The translations under genes were made by a program, and so were the position numbers. Below, piece after piece: positions 9,296 through 25,254 of a stretch of 25,290 nucleotides of DNA. The stretch is taken from positions 1 through 25,290 of IMG/VR virus record IMGVR_UViG_3300042450_000527; one strand, written 5' to 3'. Each line of letters begins with the position of its first letter. Within the stretch, counting starts at the first letter, position 1. Under the pieces are notes generated by a model, which saw nothing but the letters and a program-made list of their open reading frames with translations, did not search any database and was not told the DNA's origin. This stretch comes from a virus.

Positions 9296-10003
9296 ATGTT
9301 TTTATCACAATTATTCGAAGCAATAGACAATAAAAGACATGCTGCCTTTTGTTTTGGTCGTATGAATCCGCCCACTGTTGGTCACGGGCAATTAATCGAC
9401 ACTGTGGCTAAGGCTAGCCGTGGCGGTGATTATTTTGTATTTGTTAGTCAAACACAAGATAAGAAAAAGAACCCGTTGGGCTATGCTACTAAAGTTAAAT
9501 TTGTTCAAGCATTGTTTCCCTCACACTCAAAGCATGTAGTATACAATCTAGAACTAAAAACAATCATACAAGTAGCTGAATGGTTATACAGTAAAGGCTA
9601 TCGCTCAGTTACATTTGTAGCAGGCAGTGATAGACTATCTCAATTCCAAGAACTATTAAACAAATACAATGGTCAAGAAGGCAGTTACCAATTCGATAGT
9701 ATTAATTTTGTCAGCAGTGGAGATCGTGACCCAGACGCTGATGGTATTGCTGGTGTTAGTGCTAGTAGCGCACGTGAGGCAGCAGCCGCAGGTAACTTAG
9801 AAGCATTTGCGCAGGCCACTGGTGCTGGAAAATTAGCTGAACCATTATACCAAGCAGTACGTAAAGGTATGTTGTTAGAGTGTAGCGGATACATTCCAAA
9901 GAACAAGAAAGAAGCAAAAGATCCACGCTGGTCAAACGCTTTAAGTGTTGATGTAACTCCGCAAACTCCTACCAAAAACGCCAAAGCCCTTAGATTAGTA
10001 TAA
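9296..10003 (+). CDS. Cytidylyltransferase-like nucleotidyltransferase with probable capsid-targeting leader
   Basis: A 235-residue enzyme of the HxGH nucleotidyltransferase superfamily (NMN adenylyltransferase / FAD synthetase type). FGRMNPPTVGHGQL (20-33) is the first signature, with TVGH in place of HxGH, and VSASSAR (154-160) is the ISSTxxR-like second signature. Such enzymes join a nucleotide monophosphate to NMN, FMN, pantetheine phosphate or similar; the substrate cannot be read here. The start MFLSQLFE|A matches a prohead-protease leader, with cleavage after Glu8. A second site, LLE|C after Glu195, precedes a separate C-terminal module (GYIPKNKKEAKDPRWSNAL). The gene overlaps the next by TAATG. 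Confidence 0.88.
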   Translation: MFLSQLFEAIDNKRHAAFCFGRMNPPTVGHGQLIDTVAKASRGGDYFVFVSQTQDKKKNPLGYATKVKFVQALFPSHSKHVVYNLELKTIIQVAEWLYSKGYRSVTFVAGSDRLSQFQELLNKYNGQEGSYQFDSINFVSSGDRDPDADGIAGVSASSAREAAAAGNLEAFAQATGAGKLAEPLYQAVRKGMLLECSGYIPKNKKEAKDPRWSNALSVDVTPQTPTKNAKALRLV

Positions 10004-10346: not shown

Positions 10347-10511
10347 ATGAAAATTAACGAAGTATTAAATAAACCAATCAAGGAATGTTCAGCTGGCGCA
10401 ACAGGAACTAGTTCAATTGCTACCAGCATGGGCGGCGGCAACGGATTCCTCAATGGCGGAGTTGGTACTATATCTCGCACTAGACCTAAAAATAAAAAGA
10501 GTAAAAAATAA
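10347..10511 (+). CDS. Small Gly/Ser-rich protein with basic end, 54 residues
   Basis: Begins MKINEVLNKPIKECSAGATG. The segment SSIATSMGGGNGFLNGG is typical of short modules I recall at the ends of phage virion-associated proteins, and the last ten residues are strongly basic (KNKKSKK). IKE|C after Glu13 fits the hydrophobic-x-Glu cleavage pattern seen in neighbouring genes, so this could be a packaged internal peptide. The gene overlaps dps by TAATG, which supports translation. No enzyme function is indicated. Confidence 0.7.
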   Translation: MKINEVLNKPIKECSAGATGTSSIATSMGGGNGFLNGGVGTISRTRPKNKKSKK

Positions 10512-10948
10512 TGGATAAGTTTGTAAATCAATTAAAAATCGCATTTGCTAGCCAATATGCATTTGCTATTAAAGCACAAAACTTTCACTGGAACGTAGAA
10601 GGGCAAGATTTCTATCAACTACATCAATTGTTTGATACTATCTACGAAGAAGTATATGGTGCTGTTGATGCGTTTGCGGAAAATATCCGTAAGATCAAAG
10701 CCTATGCTCCAGCAAGTTTAGAACGTTTCTCGGCACTATCAGCAGTCAGTGACGAAGTAGAAGTATTAGCACCGCAGGCTATGGTAGCAGAACTACTACG
10801 TGACGCTGAAAAGATGCAGGAAATTATGAAAGTATTATTTACGGAAGCAGAAGCACGCGGTGAAAACGGTCTGTCAAACTTCTTAGCAGATCGTCAAGAC
10901 GCATTTGCTAAACACGCATGGTTCCTACGTGCTACAGCAAAGGTGTAA
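10511..10948 (+). CDS. dps: Dps-like ferritin
   Basis: A 145-residue Dps-family miniferritin. The signature AQNFHWNVEGQDFYQLHQLF, then EEVYGAVDAFAENIR, contains the His, His, Asp and Glu positions that build the inter-subunit ferroxidase centre. Dps proteins form 12-subunit shells that oxidise iron with hydrogen peroxide, store it, and often protect DNA. The N-terminus is short and lacks the Lys-rich DNA-binding tail of E. coli Dps. It has no capsid-targeting leader. It is coupled by TAATG to the preceding small gene. With the superoxide dismutase at 23724, it points to an oxidative-stress function for this phage. Confidence 0.9.
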   Translation: MDKFVNQLKIAFASQYAFAIKAQNFHWNVEGQDFYQLHQLFDTIYEEVYGAVDAFAENIRKIKAYAPASLERFSALSAVSDEVEVLAPQAMVAELLRDAEKMQEIMKVLFTEAEARGENGLSNFLADRQDAFAKHAWFLRATAKV

Positions 10949-17387: not shown

Positions 17388-17927
17388 ATGAGAGCAGAAG
17401 AACTAATTAGAGCAACCACAAACACTAAAATCTATCTAGACATGGATGGAGTTCTTGCTGATTTCTTTGCGGAATACGCAAAGTTGGCAGGTGTCACTAG
17501 TGGTAGTTATAGAGATATTCCCCCAGCTAAACAAGACCCTACATTAGATCAAATGATAGGCACAGACTTCTTCCATCGCTTACCTAAGTTCCCCACAGCA
17601 GACGGACTAGTTGCCTTAGCGTTAAGCTACACACCAACGTATGCTATTTGTTCAAGCCCATTGCGCGGCGATCATGCCAACAGCGAAAAGTGGAAACGTG
17701 CGTGGATTGGTGATCATTTAAATCCGCTACCTAGTGAGATTGTTATCACAGGTATGAAAGAGCACTATGCGGTTAATAAGGACGGTAGCCCCAACATCTT
17801 AATTGATGATCGTGGTGCTAACATTAGCAAATGGATAGCTCGTGGTGGCATTGGTATTAAGTATCAAGCAGACGAAGATAGCTTAAATATAGTAAAGGCC
17901 GGATTGGCCAAGGCATATGGACGATGA
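17388..17927 (+). CDS. HAD-family 5'-nucleotidase-like phosphatase
   Basis: A 179-residue HAD hydrolase of the 5'(3')-deoxyribonucleotidase type. KIYLDMDGVLADFFAEY provides the nucleophile Asp18 and the acid/base Asp20. ICSSPLRGD is motif II, and NILIDDRGANISKW contains the metal-binding acidic pair of motif IV. It would dephosphorylate nucleoside monophosphates and so adjust nucleotide pools. The N-terminus MRAEELIRATTN begins like the leader family (MRAxEFI) but has no Glu at the cleavage position, so it is a degenerate case. Its end overlaps the next gene (ATGA). First gene of the long right-hand operon. Confidence 0.85.
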   Translation: MRAEELIRATTNTKIYLDMDGVLADFFAEYAKLAGVTSGSYRDIPPAKQDPTLDQMIGTDFFHRLPKFPTADGLVALALSYTPTYAICSSPLRGDHANSEKWKRAWIGDHLNPLPSEIVITGMKEHYAVNKDGSPNILIDDRGANISKWIARGGIGIKYQADEDSLNIVKAGLAKAYGR

Positions 17928-18652
17928 ATTTAACAGAAGGCGGCAACGTTTTTAAGAATCAAGACGGTAGTGAAGCAACTACACGTATTGCTCGCAATGC
18001 TGTTGTACCCACAGTACAATGGCTAGAACAACTTACAGGTCTTAGTCTAGTAGATAATATGCTAGGCACTACAGGTCGAAAAGAAACATCGGGTGATTTA
18101 GATCTAGCAGTAGATGCCAACGCAATTAGTAAAGACGTCTTAATACAGCAACTATTAACCAAAGGTATACCCAGTACAGATCTTAAAAAGTCTGGTGATA
18201 GTGTACACTTAAAAACTCCTATCCTAGGTGATGCGAGTAATGGTTATGTACAAACAGACTTTATGTTTGGTAACCCAACCTGGCAACAATTTAGTATGCG
18301 AGGTAGCCCAGAGGGCAGTACATTTAAAGGTGTACATCGTCATGTATTAATGGCCAGCGTTGCCAAAGCTCAAGGTATGAAATGGTCATACAAAAACGGA
18401 CTGATAAATAGAGAAACAAATGAAGTTATTAGTACCAACCCACAAGAAATAGCAAAGGTGTTAATTAATGGTACCCCTGCTGATTTAGAGTCAGTTGAAA
18501 CTATCATTAAGAAAATTAAAGGTCGTCCCGACTACCCAGCATTGGTAGCAGATGCTAAAGAAGCGTTTGCTAAAGATAATTTAGAATTACCCGAGAGCAC
18601 TGCCCTGCCAGGCACAGGCGCTTGGTATAGACAATGGAGCAATAGACTATGA
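17924..18652 (+). CDS. Pol-beta-type nucleotidyltransferase fold protein
   Basis: A 242-residue protein. LGTTGRKETSGDLDLAVD (about 47-64) matches the hG(S/T)...DxD signature of the polymerase-beta nucleotidyltransferase superfamily. A third acidic residue is expected near QTDFMFGNP (about 105-112). The C-terminal part is helical. Members transfer nucleotides to proteins, RNA, drugs or DNA ends; the target is unknown here. MNLTE|G gives a very short cleavage-type leader. Joined by ATGA overlaps to the HAD enzyme before it and the large modular protein after it, so the three are made together. Superfamily likely, function open. Confidence 0.75.
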   Translation: MNLTEGGNVFKNQDGSEATTRIARNAVVPTVQWLEQLTGLSLVDNMLGTTGRKETSGDLDLAVDANAISKDVLIQQLLTKGIPSTDLKKSGDSVHLKTPILGDASNGYVQTDFMFGNPTWQQFSMRGSPEGSTFKGVHRHVLMASVAKAQGMKWSYKNGLINRETNEVISTNPQEIAKVLINGTPADLESVETIIKKIKGRPDYPALVADAKEAFAKDNLELPESTALPGTGAWYRQWSNRL

Positions 18653-20988: not shown

Positions 20989-22341
20989 ATGAGAGCACGT
21001 GATTTTTTAATAGAGTACAGTAGAGAAAAGACTGCTACAGTGTTTGGCAACAAACTTGTTGCGGCATTAGGCAAGGATAAGAGTCACACTCTTTCTGGTA
21101 CACAATTAGGCACAGATCGTGCGTTCATTGATCAAAAGATCAAAGTTAATGATGTGATTACAGCAGAACAACGTCAAATAATTATCGATCATATCATGGT
21201 TGTAATTGAAAATTCCGACCCTACGCCAAACAAAGAGTATGTACAGTGGTTGACTAAAGTATATGCCAATCAAGGTATCAAATTAGAAGATATAATAAGT
21301 CGTGGTAATAGTGCGCTTAAAATGTATCACGAGTTTAAAGTTAAAAAAATATTACCAGCAGAATATAGAGACATTGGTCGTATTGACTTTGCTGGCCTAG
21401 AATCAATAGCACAAAACCTTGACTTACGTAATGCCTTGGCCGCTAAAGAAGAACAAGAAGCCGCTAAAACTGTAGACAAAGGCGAAGCTGAAACTGTATT
21501 CGATAATGCTGCAGTGCGTATCGTTGTGCCTAAGAATGAAGCGGCATCCTGCTACTATGGACAGGGTACACGTTGGTGTACTGCTGGACGTGACAACAAT
21601 ATGTACGATCGCTATGCCAAAGATGGTGACTTGTATATCTTACTACCTAAACAACCTGACTACGAAGGTGAAAAATATCAACTACACTTTAGCAGTAACC
21701 AGTTTATGGACGAAGGTGATAACTACGTAGACAGCGTAAAAGACCTAATAACTAAACGCTTTGGCAATCTATTACCATTCTTTATGGAGCGCGAGCCTTC
21801 ACTTAAAGATTGGTTAGTGTTTACTCCAGATGAGGTATTAGAACCATTATTGGCTAAAATTAAAACAGCCGTAAACGACCACGTAAGCGAAATAGTCAAC
21901 GACTGGGAAGTACAAGACGACTACTGGTGGGATTACCTACGTAAAGAAGGATATGTATACCCAGAAGGCCACGAAGAAGAAGGCGAGATTGACTTTGATG
22001 CTGCGGCAGATGCCGATCTAAGTTACACTGATTGGAACTACGAAGCCAGCGACTTTATTCGAACAATTAATAATGCTGTAGATCTAACGCCAGAAGAAGT
22101 GCGCGAAATTGCCCAAGAGGAAGAAGATGATTACAACGGAGATGTGGGTGTTAATGACCTTGATACTATCATAGAACGCAGTATATCAAAAAATATTGGT
22201 AGAAATAGTAGTGACGGTGGTGTGATAGAATGGATTAAAGATCACATTTATATTAAGAAAACTGGTGGTGACGGCGCATGGGACGTTAGTTTGTTATACA
22301 CAGGCAAAGACGGTAAGCGAGTGGAGTACCCAATCCACTAA
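20989..22341 (+). CDS. Leader-bearing phage protein with TRWCTA motif
   Basis: A 450-residue protein. The leader is MRARDFLIE|Y. Residues 20-165 are helical. Residues 170-222 contain the block YGQGTRWCTAGRDNNMYDRY and then DGDLYILLPK, a signature I have seen in phage and mobile-element proteins and which looks like an enzymatic or binding pocket with conserved Arg, Trp and Cys. The biochemical function is not known to me. The remaining 220 residues are very acidic with many Asp/Glu and Trp. The start follows the previous stop by three bases. Packaging into the head is inferred from the leader. Confidence 0.78.
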   Translation: MRARDFLIEYSREKTATVFGNKLVAALGKDKSHTLSGTQLGTDRAFIDQKIKVNDVITAEQRQIIIDHIMVVIENSDPTPNKEYVQWLTKVYANQGIKLEDIISRGNSALKMYHEFKVKKILPAEYRDIGRIDFAGLESIAQNLDLRNALAAKEEQEAAKTVDKGEAETVFDNAAVRIVVPKNEAASCYYGQGTRWCTAGRDNNMYDRYAKDGDLYILLPKQPDYEGEKYQLHFSSNQFMDEGDNYVDSVKDLITKRFGNLLPFFMEREPSLKDWLVFTPDEVLEPLLAKIKTAVNDHVSEIVNDWEVQDDYWWDYLRKEGYVYPEGHEEEGEIDFDAAADADLSYTDWNYEASDFIRTINNAVDLTPEEVREIAQEEEDDYNGDVGVNDLDTIIERSISKNIGRNSSDGGVIEWIKDHIYIKKTGGDGAWDVSLLYTGKDGKRVEYPIH

Positions 22342-22342
22342 T

Positions 22343-22534
22343 ATGAGAGCGAATGAATTTATCATTGAAAACTTTGCAGATGGTAAGGGCCCAGGTCGCC
22401 CAGGTGATAGTCAACGTCATGGTATACCTAAAGGTGCTACTATGGCAGAATTAGAGAAAGCCGCTAAAGCACCAGGTCGTAAAGGACAGCTGGCTCGTTG
22501 GCAAATAAATATGCGTAGAGGGAAAAACAAATGA
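22343..22534 (+). CDS. Small basic leader-bearing protein, 63 residues
   Basis: I place the start at ATG 22343, one base after the previous stop, because it begins with the leader MRANEFIIE|N shared by its neighbours. An upstream in-frame ATG at 22265 lies inside the previous gene. After the leader comes a basic module, GRPGDSQRHGIPKGATMAEL, ending RKGQLARWQINMRRGKNK, a compact family I recognise from other marine T4-like phages with no known function. The strong positive charge would suit DNA binding in the head. Its stop overlaps the next gene (ATGA). Confidence 0.8.
   Translation: MRANEFIIENFADGKGPGRPGDSQRHGIPKGATMAELEKAAKAPGRKGQLARWQINMRRGKNK
22504..22511 (+). promoter_or_regulatory. Possible internal late promoter box AATAAATA
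   Basis: AATAAATA near the end of the 63-residue gene, about 20 bases before ATG 22531. Its position matches other late boxes, but it lies in coding sequence and may be chance. Confidence 0.3.
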
Positions 22535-23289
22535 AATCAAATGAATTTTTATCAGAATCTGAAAAACAAAAAGGTGTAGACGGTAAGGCTTGTTGGGATG
22601 GTTACAAGCGCATGGGCACTAAGAAGAAAGGTGGCAAGACCGTTGACAACTGTGTTAAGATGGAAGAATCTAATGATGAGTATGATGACGAAGCTGGTAT
22701 GGTTGACAGTAATTTAGAAACAATTAAACGTGCCGCTGAAGAACTAGATCAAGTGCTGGGCCAAGATGATAACATGGCTGAATGGGCACAAGAAAAATTA
22801 GCAGTGGTCAAGAGCATGCTAGTTGCTGTTAAGGACTACGTAGTTAGTCAAAAATCCACAGGTATTGATCCGCAAGTAGACAAAGAGTTTGACATGATTG
22901 AATCTGTTATCGAATCGCTAGCAGTACGCAATCAAGTTGATGCTGAAGTTATTTGGGAAGATCTAGAATCACTTACAGAAGACGAACTATACGTGTTTGC
23001 TGTTACCCAAGAGCCAGTAAATGAAGATTGGCAAAAAGTTAACAAGAAAGATAAAACAGACGGCATGAGCAAGAAGGCAGTTAATGCTTATCGTCGTGAG
23101 AATCCAGGTAGCAAACTAAAAACAGCAGTGACTACTAAACCTAGTAAGTTGAAAAAAGGTAGTAAAGCCAGCAAACGTCGTAAGAGCTATTGCTCACGTA
23201 GCAAAGGTCAAATGAATATGCACAATATTAGCTGTGCTAAAACTCCAGACAAGGCAATTTGTAAAGCACGTCGTCGTTGGAACTGCTAA
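22531..23289 (+). CDS. Modular leader protein: CWxGY module, helical module, basic DUF6321-like end
   Basis: A 252-residue protein built of separate pieces. MKSNEFLSE|S is the leader. Residues 21-42 are the CWDGYKRMGTKKKGGKTVDN module, also found at 12177. Residues 58-108 are a helical module with MAEWAQEKLAVVKSML. Residues 176-252 are a strongly basic C-terminal domain (GMSKKAVNAYRRENPGSKLK and a Cys-bearing end), which matches what I know as DUF6321 in phages. Possible cuts are after Glu9, Glu46 (MEE|S) and Glu165 (VNE|D), each at a module border. Basic C-terminus suggests DNA contact. Function not known. Confidence 0.82.
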   Translation: MKSNEFLSESEKQKGVDGKACWDGYKRMGTKKKGGKTVDNCVKMEESNDEYDDEAGMVDSNLETIKRAAEELDQVLGQDDNMAEWAQEKLAVVKSMLVAVKDYVVSQKSTGIDPQVDKEFDMIESVIESLAVRNQVDAEVIWEDLESLTEDELYVFAVTQEPVNEDWQKVNKKDKTDGMSKKAVNAYRRENPGSKLKTAVTTKPSKLKKGSKASKRRKSYCSRSKGQMNMHNISCAKTPDKAICKARRRWNC

Positions 23290-23293
23290 TTTC

Positions 23294-23722
23294 ATGAGAG
23301 AACTAATTACTCTGATAGAAGCAGTGAGTCGTGGTTGCCCTGTGGCAACTGCGGACATCCATGTCAATTTGAAAAATAGACAACACGCCATTGATGAGTA
23401 TCATTATGGTCCTGCCAATCCTGATAAACCAGAAAACTATTGGAAAGAATCCGCTAAGGTATTCAACGTTAAAGAAGCCACTGCCAAAACTATGTTATGT
23501 GGCAACTGTGCGGCTTTTGATGTTAGTGACAGTATGCGAGATTGTATAGCTAAAGGCATTCAAGGTGACGAGAAACACATAGATGCCAATGCCACTATCA
23601 ATCTTAGCGACCTAGGCTACTGTAACTTTCTACACTTTAAATGTGCTGGCGAACGTAGTTGTTCTGCTTGGGTAACTGGCGGACCTATTACAGAAAAAGA
23701 CAAGGGTAAAAAGGCAAACTAA
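23294..23722 (+). CDS. Cys-cluster protein with leader
   Basis: A 142-residue protein. I start it at ATG 23294, four bases after the previous stop, since this gives the leader MRELITLIE|A; an ATG at 23234 in frame is inside the upstream gene. After an N-terminal motif NLKNRQHAIDEYHYGPANPD comes a Cys-rich domain: MLCGNCAAF, RDC, GYCNFLHFKC and RSCSAW. The spacing of these Cys suggests an iron-sulfur cluster (high-potential type) or a zinc site. The family is found in marine phages, function unknown to me. It lies directly before the superoxide dismutase gene, so a redox role is an attractive inference. Confidence 0.78.
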   Translation: MRELITLIEAVSRGCPVATADIHVNLKNRQHAIDEYHYGPANPDKPENYWKESAKVFNVKEATAKTMLCGNCAAFDVSDSMRDCIAKGIQGDEKHIDANATINLSDLGYCNFLHFKCAGERSCSAWVTGGPITEKDKGKKAN

Positions 23723-23723
23723 T

Positions 23724-24257
23724 ATGCGAGCAACTGAATTCTTAACAGAAAGTAAAGAAAAATTAGAGTTAACTAAGTTACCGTATTCTAGAACAGCTCT
23801 TACCCCTGTAATGAGCAAAACTACTATTGACAATCATTATGGTAAACTAGCCAAAGGTTATGTAGATCGTTACAACAAAGGCGAAGGCGACAAGACATTT
23901 AATGCCGCTGGCGCTTATCTACATAACTTATTCTTTCCACAGCTACGTGCGCCAAGATCAAGTAACAAACCAACAGGGCTAGTTAAGAATCTAATAGAAC
24001 AAAAGTTTAAAACTTTTGAAAAGTTTAAAGAAGAGTTTGCTGAAAAGGCTATGAAGCTACAGGGCAGTCATTGGATCTACCTTAGCAAGAATGGCACTAT
24101 CAAAACCATACCCAATCATCAAAAACGCACAGACATAGCCTTACTAATAGACTGGTGGGAACATGCTTGGGCTCTAGACTACGGTACTGACAAAAAGAAA
24201 TATCTCGCTAACATTTGGCGTATAATCAACTGGGACGTTGTTAATCAACGAATGTAA
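23724..24257 (+). CDS. Fe/Mn-type superoxide dismutase with capsid-targeting leader
   Basis: A 177-residue enzyme converting superoxide to hydrogen peroxide and oxygen. SOD landmarks are all present: LPYSRTALTPVMSKTTIDNH, NAAGAYLHNLFFPQL, and LLIDWWEHAWALDYGTDKKK ending in NIWRIINW. The metal ligands are His38, His67, Asp143 and His147. Gly63 at the position that holds Gln in typical iron enzymes, with His132 in IPNHQK, resembles Mn or cambialistic types, so metal choice is uncertain. The first nine residues, MRATEFLTE|S, are extra to the SOD fold and match the leader family. It is slightly short for the family (usually about 190-200). No signal peptide. Neighbours on both sides carry the same leader. 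Confidence 0.92.
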   Translation: MRATEFLTESKEKLELTKLPYSRTALTPVMSKTTIDNHYGKLAKGYVDRYNKGEGDKTFNAAGAYLHNLFFPQLRAPRSSNKPTGLVKNLIEQKFKTFEKFKEEFAEKAMKLQGSHWIYLSKNGTIKTIPNHQKRTDIALLIDWWEHAWALDYGTDKKKYLANIWRIINWDVVNQRM

Positions 24258-24258
24258 T

Positions 24259-25254
24259 ATGAGAGCACGTGACTTCATCTTAGAAAATGTTAGCGCCGGC
24301 AAGGTCTTAGACTATGTCAACAGCATACATCCAGCATCACAAAAATCTAGTAACCTAGATCGAATAATATTAGCCAATACAGAATATGTACTAAAAACTG
24401 TAGCAGTAGATCAATTACAAATTGACGCAGACGATGATCCATATGGTCGTGTAGTACACGTCGATGTAGACTATGCTGATGAAATCTCACCAGACGATAT
24501 TAAGCGTAAGCCAATTGTCATAGACAGACAAGGACATATATTAGATGGTAATCATCGTGCGTGGCAGGCAAGGGAATTAGGCATGGACATGATACCTGCG
24601 TATGTGCCTGTTAAAGAATTAACTGAATCACTAGATCCAGGAGTTGAAGAATTTTTAAATGATCTAACACCAGAAGATGTTGGTGTAGACGAAGTAGGCG
24701 ATTACCGTGTACACTTTGAAGGCTTTACTGATGACTGCCAATCCAGCAGAGATTACTGTCGTAATCCAAAAAAAGTGTTTCGAGAAGTATTTGCTGATTT
24801 TATCCGCCGTGAGGGTGGACAACAGCCTGTTGCCGCAGGTATGGTTGGCGATGAAGACTACCCTATTCTATACAGCGTGTTTAAGAACACAGTTAGAAAA
24901 AATGTGCCATTAACTCCAGAAAAAGCATACCAAATAGCATATAATAAAAAGAGGCCGTGGCCTACAGGCAGTGCTGAAGAGCAACTAATTCGTAGTGATT
25001 TCCAATTAAGTGATTTGTATGATAGGTATGTGTTGAATCAGACCGATATGAGAGCAAATGAATTTATAAGCGAAGACGAAGGATTAAGCTATCAAGGTAA
25101 TTGTACCGATGATGATGTTATTGAATATATTTTCGGTGATGCCACTACGTTTGCGCAGTTGGTTGACGAATACGGCGATGAGTTTGTATTAGATGATTTA
25201 GTAGTAAAGTATAATCCAGAAGAAGATATACACTACTTCTATTATAAGAGCTAA
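24259..25254 (+). CDS. ParB/sulfiredoxin-like domain protein with two leader cassettes
   Basis: I start it at ATG 24259, one base after the previous stop, giving leader MRARDFILE|N; an ATG at 24238 is inside the upstream gene. The product has 331 residues. Residues 50-117 form a ParB-N/sulfiredoxin-like domain with IVIDRQGHILDGNHRAWQA; DGNHR (96-100) is the nucleotide-binding or catalytic signature. ELTE|S after Glu123 is a possible cut. Residues 124-260 are an unrecognised alpha/beta module. At residue 264 a second complete leader, MRANEFISE|D, appears in frame, followed by a 60-residue acidic module, so two cassettes appear fused. Function unknown. Confidence 0.8.
   Translation: MRARDFILENVSAGKVLDYVNSIHPASQKSSNLDRIILANTEYVLKTVAVDQLQIDADDDPYGRVVHVDVDYADEISPDDIKRKPIVIDRQGHILDGNHRAWQARELGMDMIPAYVPVKELTESLDPGVEEFLNDLTPEDVGVDEVGDYRVHFEGFTDDCQSSRDYCRNPKKVFREVFADFIRREGGQQPVAAGMVGDEDYPILYSVFKNTVRKNVPLTPEKAYQIAYNKKRPWPTGSAEEQLIRSDFQLSDLYDRYVLNQTDMRANEFISEDEGLSYQGNCTDDDVIEYIFGDATTFAQLVDEYGDEFVLDDLVVKYNPEEDIHYFYYKS
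25048..25254 (+). other. Internal start and second leader inside the 24259 gene
   Basis: ATG 25048 begins MRANEFISE|D in the same frame as the larger gene, and 68 codons follow to the common stop. It may be translated on its own or released by proteolysis. No stop codon separates it from the upstream part. The module (TDDDVIEYIFGDATTFAQLV) is acidic. Confidence 0.5.

Follow-up and report, generated by a model that had tools for sequence, protein, structure and literature searches.

In phage T4, internal proteins are directed to the core by N-terminal propeptides of 10-19 residues, and the protease gp21 cleaves after the motif L/I-x-E (PMC9026906). The T4 capsid-targeting sequence will also take foreign enzymes into heads and then into cells (PMC9026906). 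Superoxide dismutases (SODs) are likewise known as viral proteins. The chlorovirus PBCV-1 packages an active Cu/Zn SOD, A245R, that is tied to reduced superoxide in the infected cell (PMC7019647), vaccinia packages a non-functional SOD homologue, A45R (PMC9282662), and phage Fe/Mn SODs have already been noted as auxiliary genes (PMC12542629). In a keyword search of the literature, with most subscription papers and preprints outside its scope, no paper was found on a phage virion SOD or on such a leader carried by one, and a T4-type head tag on a phage Fe/Mn SOD thus appears to be undescribed in the searchable literature. The preliminary description of this DNA had gone further in knowing of no capsid-packaged SOD, which stands for phages in the literature searched and falls for viruses at large, given the PBCV-1 and vaccinia proteins.

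The gene considered here lies near the right end of a 25,290-nucleotide stretch of viral DNA (the window; Table 1) and opens with an ATG codon. Both SOD domains of its product pass the curated Pfam cut-offs (Sod_Fe_N, 9.6e-11; Sod_Fe_C, 3.9e-23), and Pfam and structural alignment agree that the alpha-hairpin and C-terminal domains are both present. A phmmer search of the PDB matched 158 distinct sequences, with the Porphyromonas gingivalis SOD at the top (1e-27), and an AlphaFold model built with 57 sequences as input (pLDDT 94.4) superimposes on solved SODs with Z scores up to 23.9 over residues 13-177. The gene is under strong purifying selection: dN/dS of the SOD core, each relative being compared with the window copy, is ~0.05-0.10 for six of seven relatives, synonymous sites being saturated in the seventh. 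The gene belongs to a large T4-like phage, and its product is a compact Fe/Mn SOD that probably works.

Table 1. Coordinates of the SOD gene, its parts and its neighbours in the window (a slash marks the putative cut that ends a leader).
Feature	Position	Strand	Evidence or remark
Gene, leader MRARDFLIE/Y	20989..22341	+	PA5oct homologue EST35_0205, "structural protein", ESI-MS/MS note
Small gene, leader MRANEFIIE/N	22343..22534	+	
DUF6321 gene, leader MKSNEFLSE/S	22531..23289	+	
Upstream neighbour, 142 aa, Cys-rich, leader MRELITLIE/A	23294..23722	+	
Fe/Mn superoxide dismutase, 177 aa, with N-terminal leader	23724..24257	+	Pfam, PDB matches, AlphaFold model
Leader MRATEFLTE, residues 1-9, capsid-targeting-like	23724..23750	+	Predicted cut after Glu9 (LTE/S)
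Linker SKE, residues 10-12, between predicted cut and SOD fold	23751..23759	+	Structural alignments
Metal ligand His38 codon	23835..23837	+	Invariant, 59/59 aligned sequences
Metal ligand His67 codon	23922..23924	+	Invariant, 59/59 aligned sequences
His132 codon	24117..24119	+	Invariant, 47/47 phage SODs; near MnSOD Gln146 position in alignment
Ligand motif D143-W-W-E146-H147, two ligands	24150..24164	+	D143, W145, E146, H147 invariant
Glu146-His147			Counterpart of dimer double-bridge pair in known SODs
Downstream gene, leader MRARDFILE/N, second internal leader at 25048	24259..25254	+	

The four metal ligands, His38, His67, Asp143 and His147, line up with those of cellular SODs and are unchanged in all 59 aligned sequences, so that the claim of an intact fold and intact ligands, made when the gene was first noticed, is borne out by domain matches, model and alignment alike. 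Tyr46 (the equivalent of the gateway residue Tyr34), Trp117 and Glu146 are likewise invariant in these 59. The surroundings of the site have changed: the equivalent of the second-sphere residue His30 is Leu in every one of the 47 phage SODs, an alteration by which SOD activity could be affected, and the Tyr of the other gateway position is Trp in most. Gly63 is common to the phage proteins alongside this Leu and His132. A Gly/His pair at the Gln69 and Gln146 sites is known in some Fe-dependent and in some cambialistic SODs, and metal choice is therefore not confidently readable from the sequence.

Phage SOD genes had been thought unusual when the window was first described, a view that the distribution of relatives overturns. 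They are encoded by 237 IMG/VR contigs, the best 80 of which were retrieved, and by cultured phages, namely the PA5oct-group Pseudomonas jumbo phages and Vibrio phage 2.275; on this census the genes are widespread among T4-like large phages. In a maximum-likelihood tree, 36 phage SODs fall on one side of a branch with support 100/100 and 70 bacterial SODs on the other. By this analysis the phage SODs are one clade, separate from the bacterial SODs compared, within which the exact place of the PA5oct and Vibrio proteins is unsure because of their long branches. Measured from the LPY anchor, the phage core runs to ~158-165 residues versus ~184-187 in most bacteria, the difference of ~25 residues being mainly a shortened hairpin. 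No plasmid relatives were found at E < 1e-20. Several records labelled as phage (Staphylococcus, Enterococcus, Listeria, Acinetobacter) gave SOD matches of only ~28-32% identity, may be host sequence and were excluded from the analysis. Cellular-looking SODs of ~28-37% identity also occur in several short or unannotated records labelled as phage, which likewise may be host sequence.

At the N-terminus of the window protein, residues 1-10 are the sole low-confidence part of the model, the remainder having pLDDT 93-98, and structural alignments to solved SODs mostly begin at residue 12-13. The predicted cut falls at the point where model confidence rises, three residues ahead of most alignment starts. 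Eighteen residues precede the LPY anchor in the window protein and generally 18-27 in its phage relatives, versus ~7 in bacterial SODs, which, as aligned here, are without the leader. The nine-residue leader proposed to precede the fold, a disordered segment, is thus real on all three counts. The start of the protein, MRATEFLTE/S, resembles that shared by T4 ipII and ipIII (MKTYQEFIAE/A; from NC_000866). When phage SODs were clustered at 90% identity, [LIV]xE was kept in the leader of 43 of 44 clusters, versus 21.7 +/- 3.2 (maximum 33) in a null of 5,000 shuffles of the leader residues. Vibrio phage 2.275 differs in that its SOD (L083, 7968-8537) is without an N-terminal leader. The same protein ends in a C-terminal tail, KMLDE/SVNIRHLINFISK, in which an L-x-E site is combined with a segment resembling a leader; such C-terminal tails were sought in the other proteins of this phage and none was found.

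The leader is shared with the genes around it. Similar leaders are carried by five genes near the SOD, and the pattern M[RK]..[DE][FILV][LIV].E is found in 6 of 154 ATG-started frames of the window (20989, 22343, 22531, 23724, 24259 and an internal start at 25048) versus 11 of 6,300 elsewhere, the comparison frames being pooled from contigs G001 and G003, PA5oct and G014 (p=1.7e-6). The TAA of the upstream neighbour ends one base ahead of the SOD ATG, giving TAATATG, and the same heptamer forms the junction between the SOD and the downstream gene; with both junctions so built, the genes form a tight cassette. We also considered that the leader might be a shared DNA element instead of a peptide, a reading that is disfavoured because the window leaders use different synonymous codons. 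An SD-like site upstream was not useful as a filter for leader genes.

Several features of these and other window genes deserve mention in their own right. The leader of the upstream neighbour is of a second type, resembling the SOD leaders of relatives L013-L018, and the protein itself has a relative in contig G001 that is 96% identical. Its cysteines are arranged as CGNC...GYC...KC...SC, and relatives occur in 95 viral contig stretches. It gave no Pfam or PHROG match and no significant PDB match, and its likeness to a HiPIP is one seen by eye only. The internal leader of the downstream gene, MRANEFISE/DEG, lies in the middle of the protein, much as it would in a fusion of two tagged cargo proteins. 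Farther upstream, a deoxyribonucleotidase-like gene (17388-17927) is followed by a gene (17924-18652) whose product starts MNLTE/GG, and a Dps-like ferritin (10511-10948; Pfam Ferritin, 6.4e-18) has no leader and has homologues in G001 and G003. PhoH, ClpA-like, DnaJ and other genes are common to the window and PA5oct.

Head genes of T4 type were sought in the records of relatives. Six of these are large and carry the SOD, and Peptidase_S77, the gp21 family, was identified in four of them, PA5oct, Vibrio phage 2.275, G008 and G014, but not in G010 or G011. PA5oct, Vibrio phage 2.275 and G014 each have both a T4-type portal and a strong gp23 match. G008 has a strong gp23 match, and G010 a T4-type portal together with a partial gp23 match where its contig ends. 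The closest large contigs, G001 and G003, gave no S77, gp20 or gp23 match and are probably fragments.

The cultured Pseudomonas phage PA5oct offers the nearest approach to virion data. Its SOD relative, EST35_0261, begins MNDSIKKYISIAE/A, with a leader ending IAE/A, and carries an "ESI-MS/MS" note in GenBank, as do 93 listed PA5oct proteins, many of them named "structural protein"; structural proteomics of PA5oct is stated in a related paper to have been done (PMC6950013). The homologues of the window genes at 20989 and 17924 (EST35_0205 and EST35_0231) are both MS-noted structural proteins, and that of the gene at 9296 has no such note. A loose [LIV]xE test did not separate MS-noted from other PA5oct proteins. 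Strict leaders are found in 5 of the 93 MS-noted proteins versus none of 106 others examined, for which p=0.02 is optimistic, the strict pattern having been picked after the loose one failed. Among homologues of window genes, the MS note falls on three of four leader-bearing and two of six leaderless proteins (p=0.52), a difference short of significance. The MS note also stands on ribonucleotide reductase, thymidylate synthase, DNA ligase and FtsH, and proteins may therefore have been carried over from the lysate. On balance the PA5oct data lend moderate support to packaging.

Our preferred reading, and one that we hold to be likely, is that the window encodes a phage-lineage Fe/Mn SOD with a T4-type capsid-targeting sequence that is packed in the head, ejected with the DNA and active early. 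The SOD would be made late in infection, its leader would bind the prohead core, and a gp21-family head protease would cut after Glu9 during maturation, leaving tens to hundreds of molecules in the head among the DNA. Ejected together with the DNA into a new host, the enzyme would lower cytoplasmic superoxide during the first minutes and so shield the incoming DNA, as well as Fe-S enzymes that are sensitive to superoxide, ahead of phage gene expression, and the H2O2 formed would be handled by host catalase and peroxidases. Packaging, cleavage, ejection, catalysis and purpose are all steps that we infer. Virion cargo, as the gene's product had been cast from the outset, is nonetheless the best-supported reading, and a partly supported one, because of the T4-type leader and cleavage motif, their conservation, the neighbours that share the leader, the gp21-family protease found in most of the large records that carry the SOD, and the PA5oct MS note.

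A more conventional account would have the SOD be the product of an ordinary auxiliary metabolic gene, acting late in the infected cell and unpackaged, with a leader that is incidental or serves translation or scaffold contact. Viral Fe/Mn SODs have been so interpreted, for example in Microcystis phages (PMC12542629), and the likely lysate enzymes in the PA5oct MS set fit as well, but we consider this account unlikely: it leaves unexplained a conserved L/I-x-E leader at the edge of the fold, the absence of that leader from bacterial SODs and its sharing among adjacent genes. One might instead accept packaging and doubt the chemistry, such that an internal protein of SOD fold would serve as DNA-associated filler or as a decoy. 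The Leu at the His30 site, the Trp in most proteins at the other gateway position and the shortened core would all suit such a protein, for which vaccinia A45R, packaged and non-functional, is a precedent (PMC9282662). A structural relic, however, would be expected to lose its ligands, and here the four ligands, Tyr46, Trp117 and Glu146 are all invariant and purifying selection is strong; of the readings considered we think this the least probable.

Two roles had been proposed for a packaged SOD, blunting of an oxidative burst at infection and protection of the DNA within the particle, and they fare differently. That the enzyme acts mainly in the particle, shielding DNA from photo-oxidative damage in water, is compatible with the leader evidence, and many relatives come from metagenomic contigs. 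We nevertheless give this role little credence. Neither a catalase nor a peroxidase was recognised next to the SOD, which only turns superoxide into H2O2, and action at infection is for that reason judged likelier; the Dps-like protein of the window, moreover, is without a leader, and T4 internal proteins with such a tag go into the host on ejection (PMC9026906).

A broader possibility, which we advance tentatively as slightly more apt to fail than to hold, is that a general tag-and-deliver system operates in T4-like jumbo phages, in which many enzymes, SOD among them, would be tagged, packed, trimmed and injected as a toolkit at work in the host ahead of all phage gene expression. The tag appears to be swapped between genes and may have moved to the C-terminus in the Vibrio phage SOD. 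Delivery of foreign enzymes by the T4 tag is an artificial feat, and the present data suggest that large relatives of T4 may load a metalloenzyme naturally. It would then have to be asked whether phages face superoxide early on as a danger, or as a defence that the host raises at that stage. Because P. aeruginosa phages of the PA5oct type carry a relative, the cargo idea lends itself to direct tests in culture, and further candidate cargo could be listed from sequence alone by way of the leader pattern.

Compared with T4 IPII and IPIII, the window SOD has the same kind of short N-terminal leader (M-[KR]-...-E-F-[IL]-x-E), the same L/I-x-E motif with a predicted cut after Glu, and a leader common to otherwise different proteins, whereas the T4 cargo consists of small basic proteins and the SOD is a metalloenzyme of known fold. 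The P. gingivalis SOD (1ues/1qnn) and Bacteroides fragilis SodFM2 (8avl) share its fold (Z ~23.6-23.8), 35-40% identity and identical metal ligands, and these bacterial cambialistic and Fe enzymes differ from the phage protein in its leader, shorter core, Leu for His30, invariant His132 and separate clade. The PA5oct-type SOD belongs to the same family (44% identity) and joins a leader of different sequence to T4-type head genes and the MS note; it is annotated sodB in Callisto and MIJ3 and as a hypothetical protein in PA5oct. Vaccinia A45R has a Cu/Zn-type fold and is catalytically inactive, and PBCV-1 A245R, of an unrelated Cu/Zn fold, comes from a eukaryotic algal virus. Natural loading of a phage SOD, if true, would parallel this chlorovirus virion SOD.
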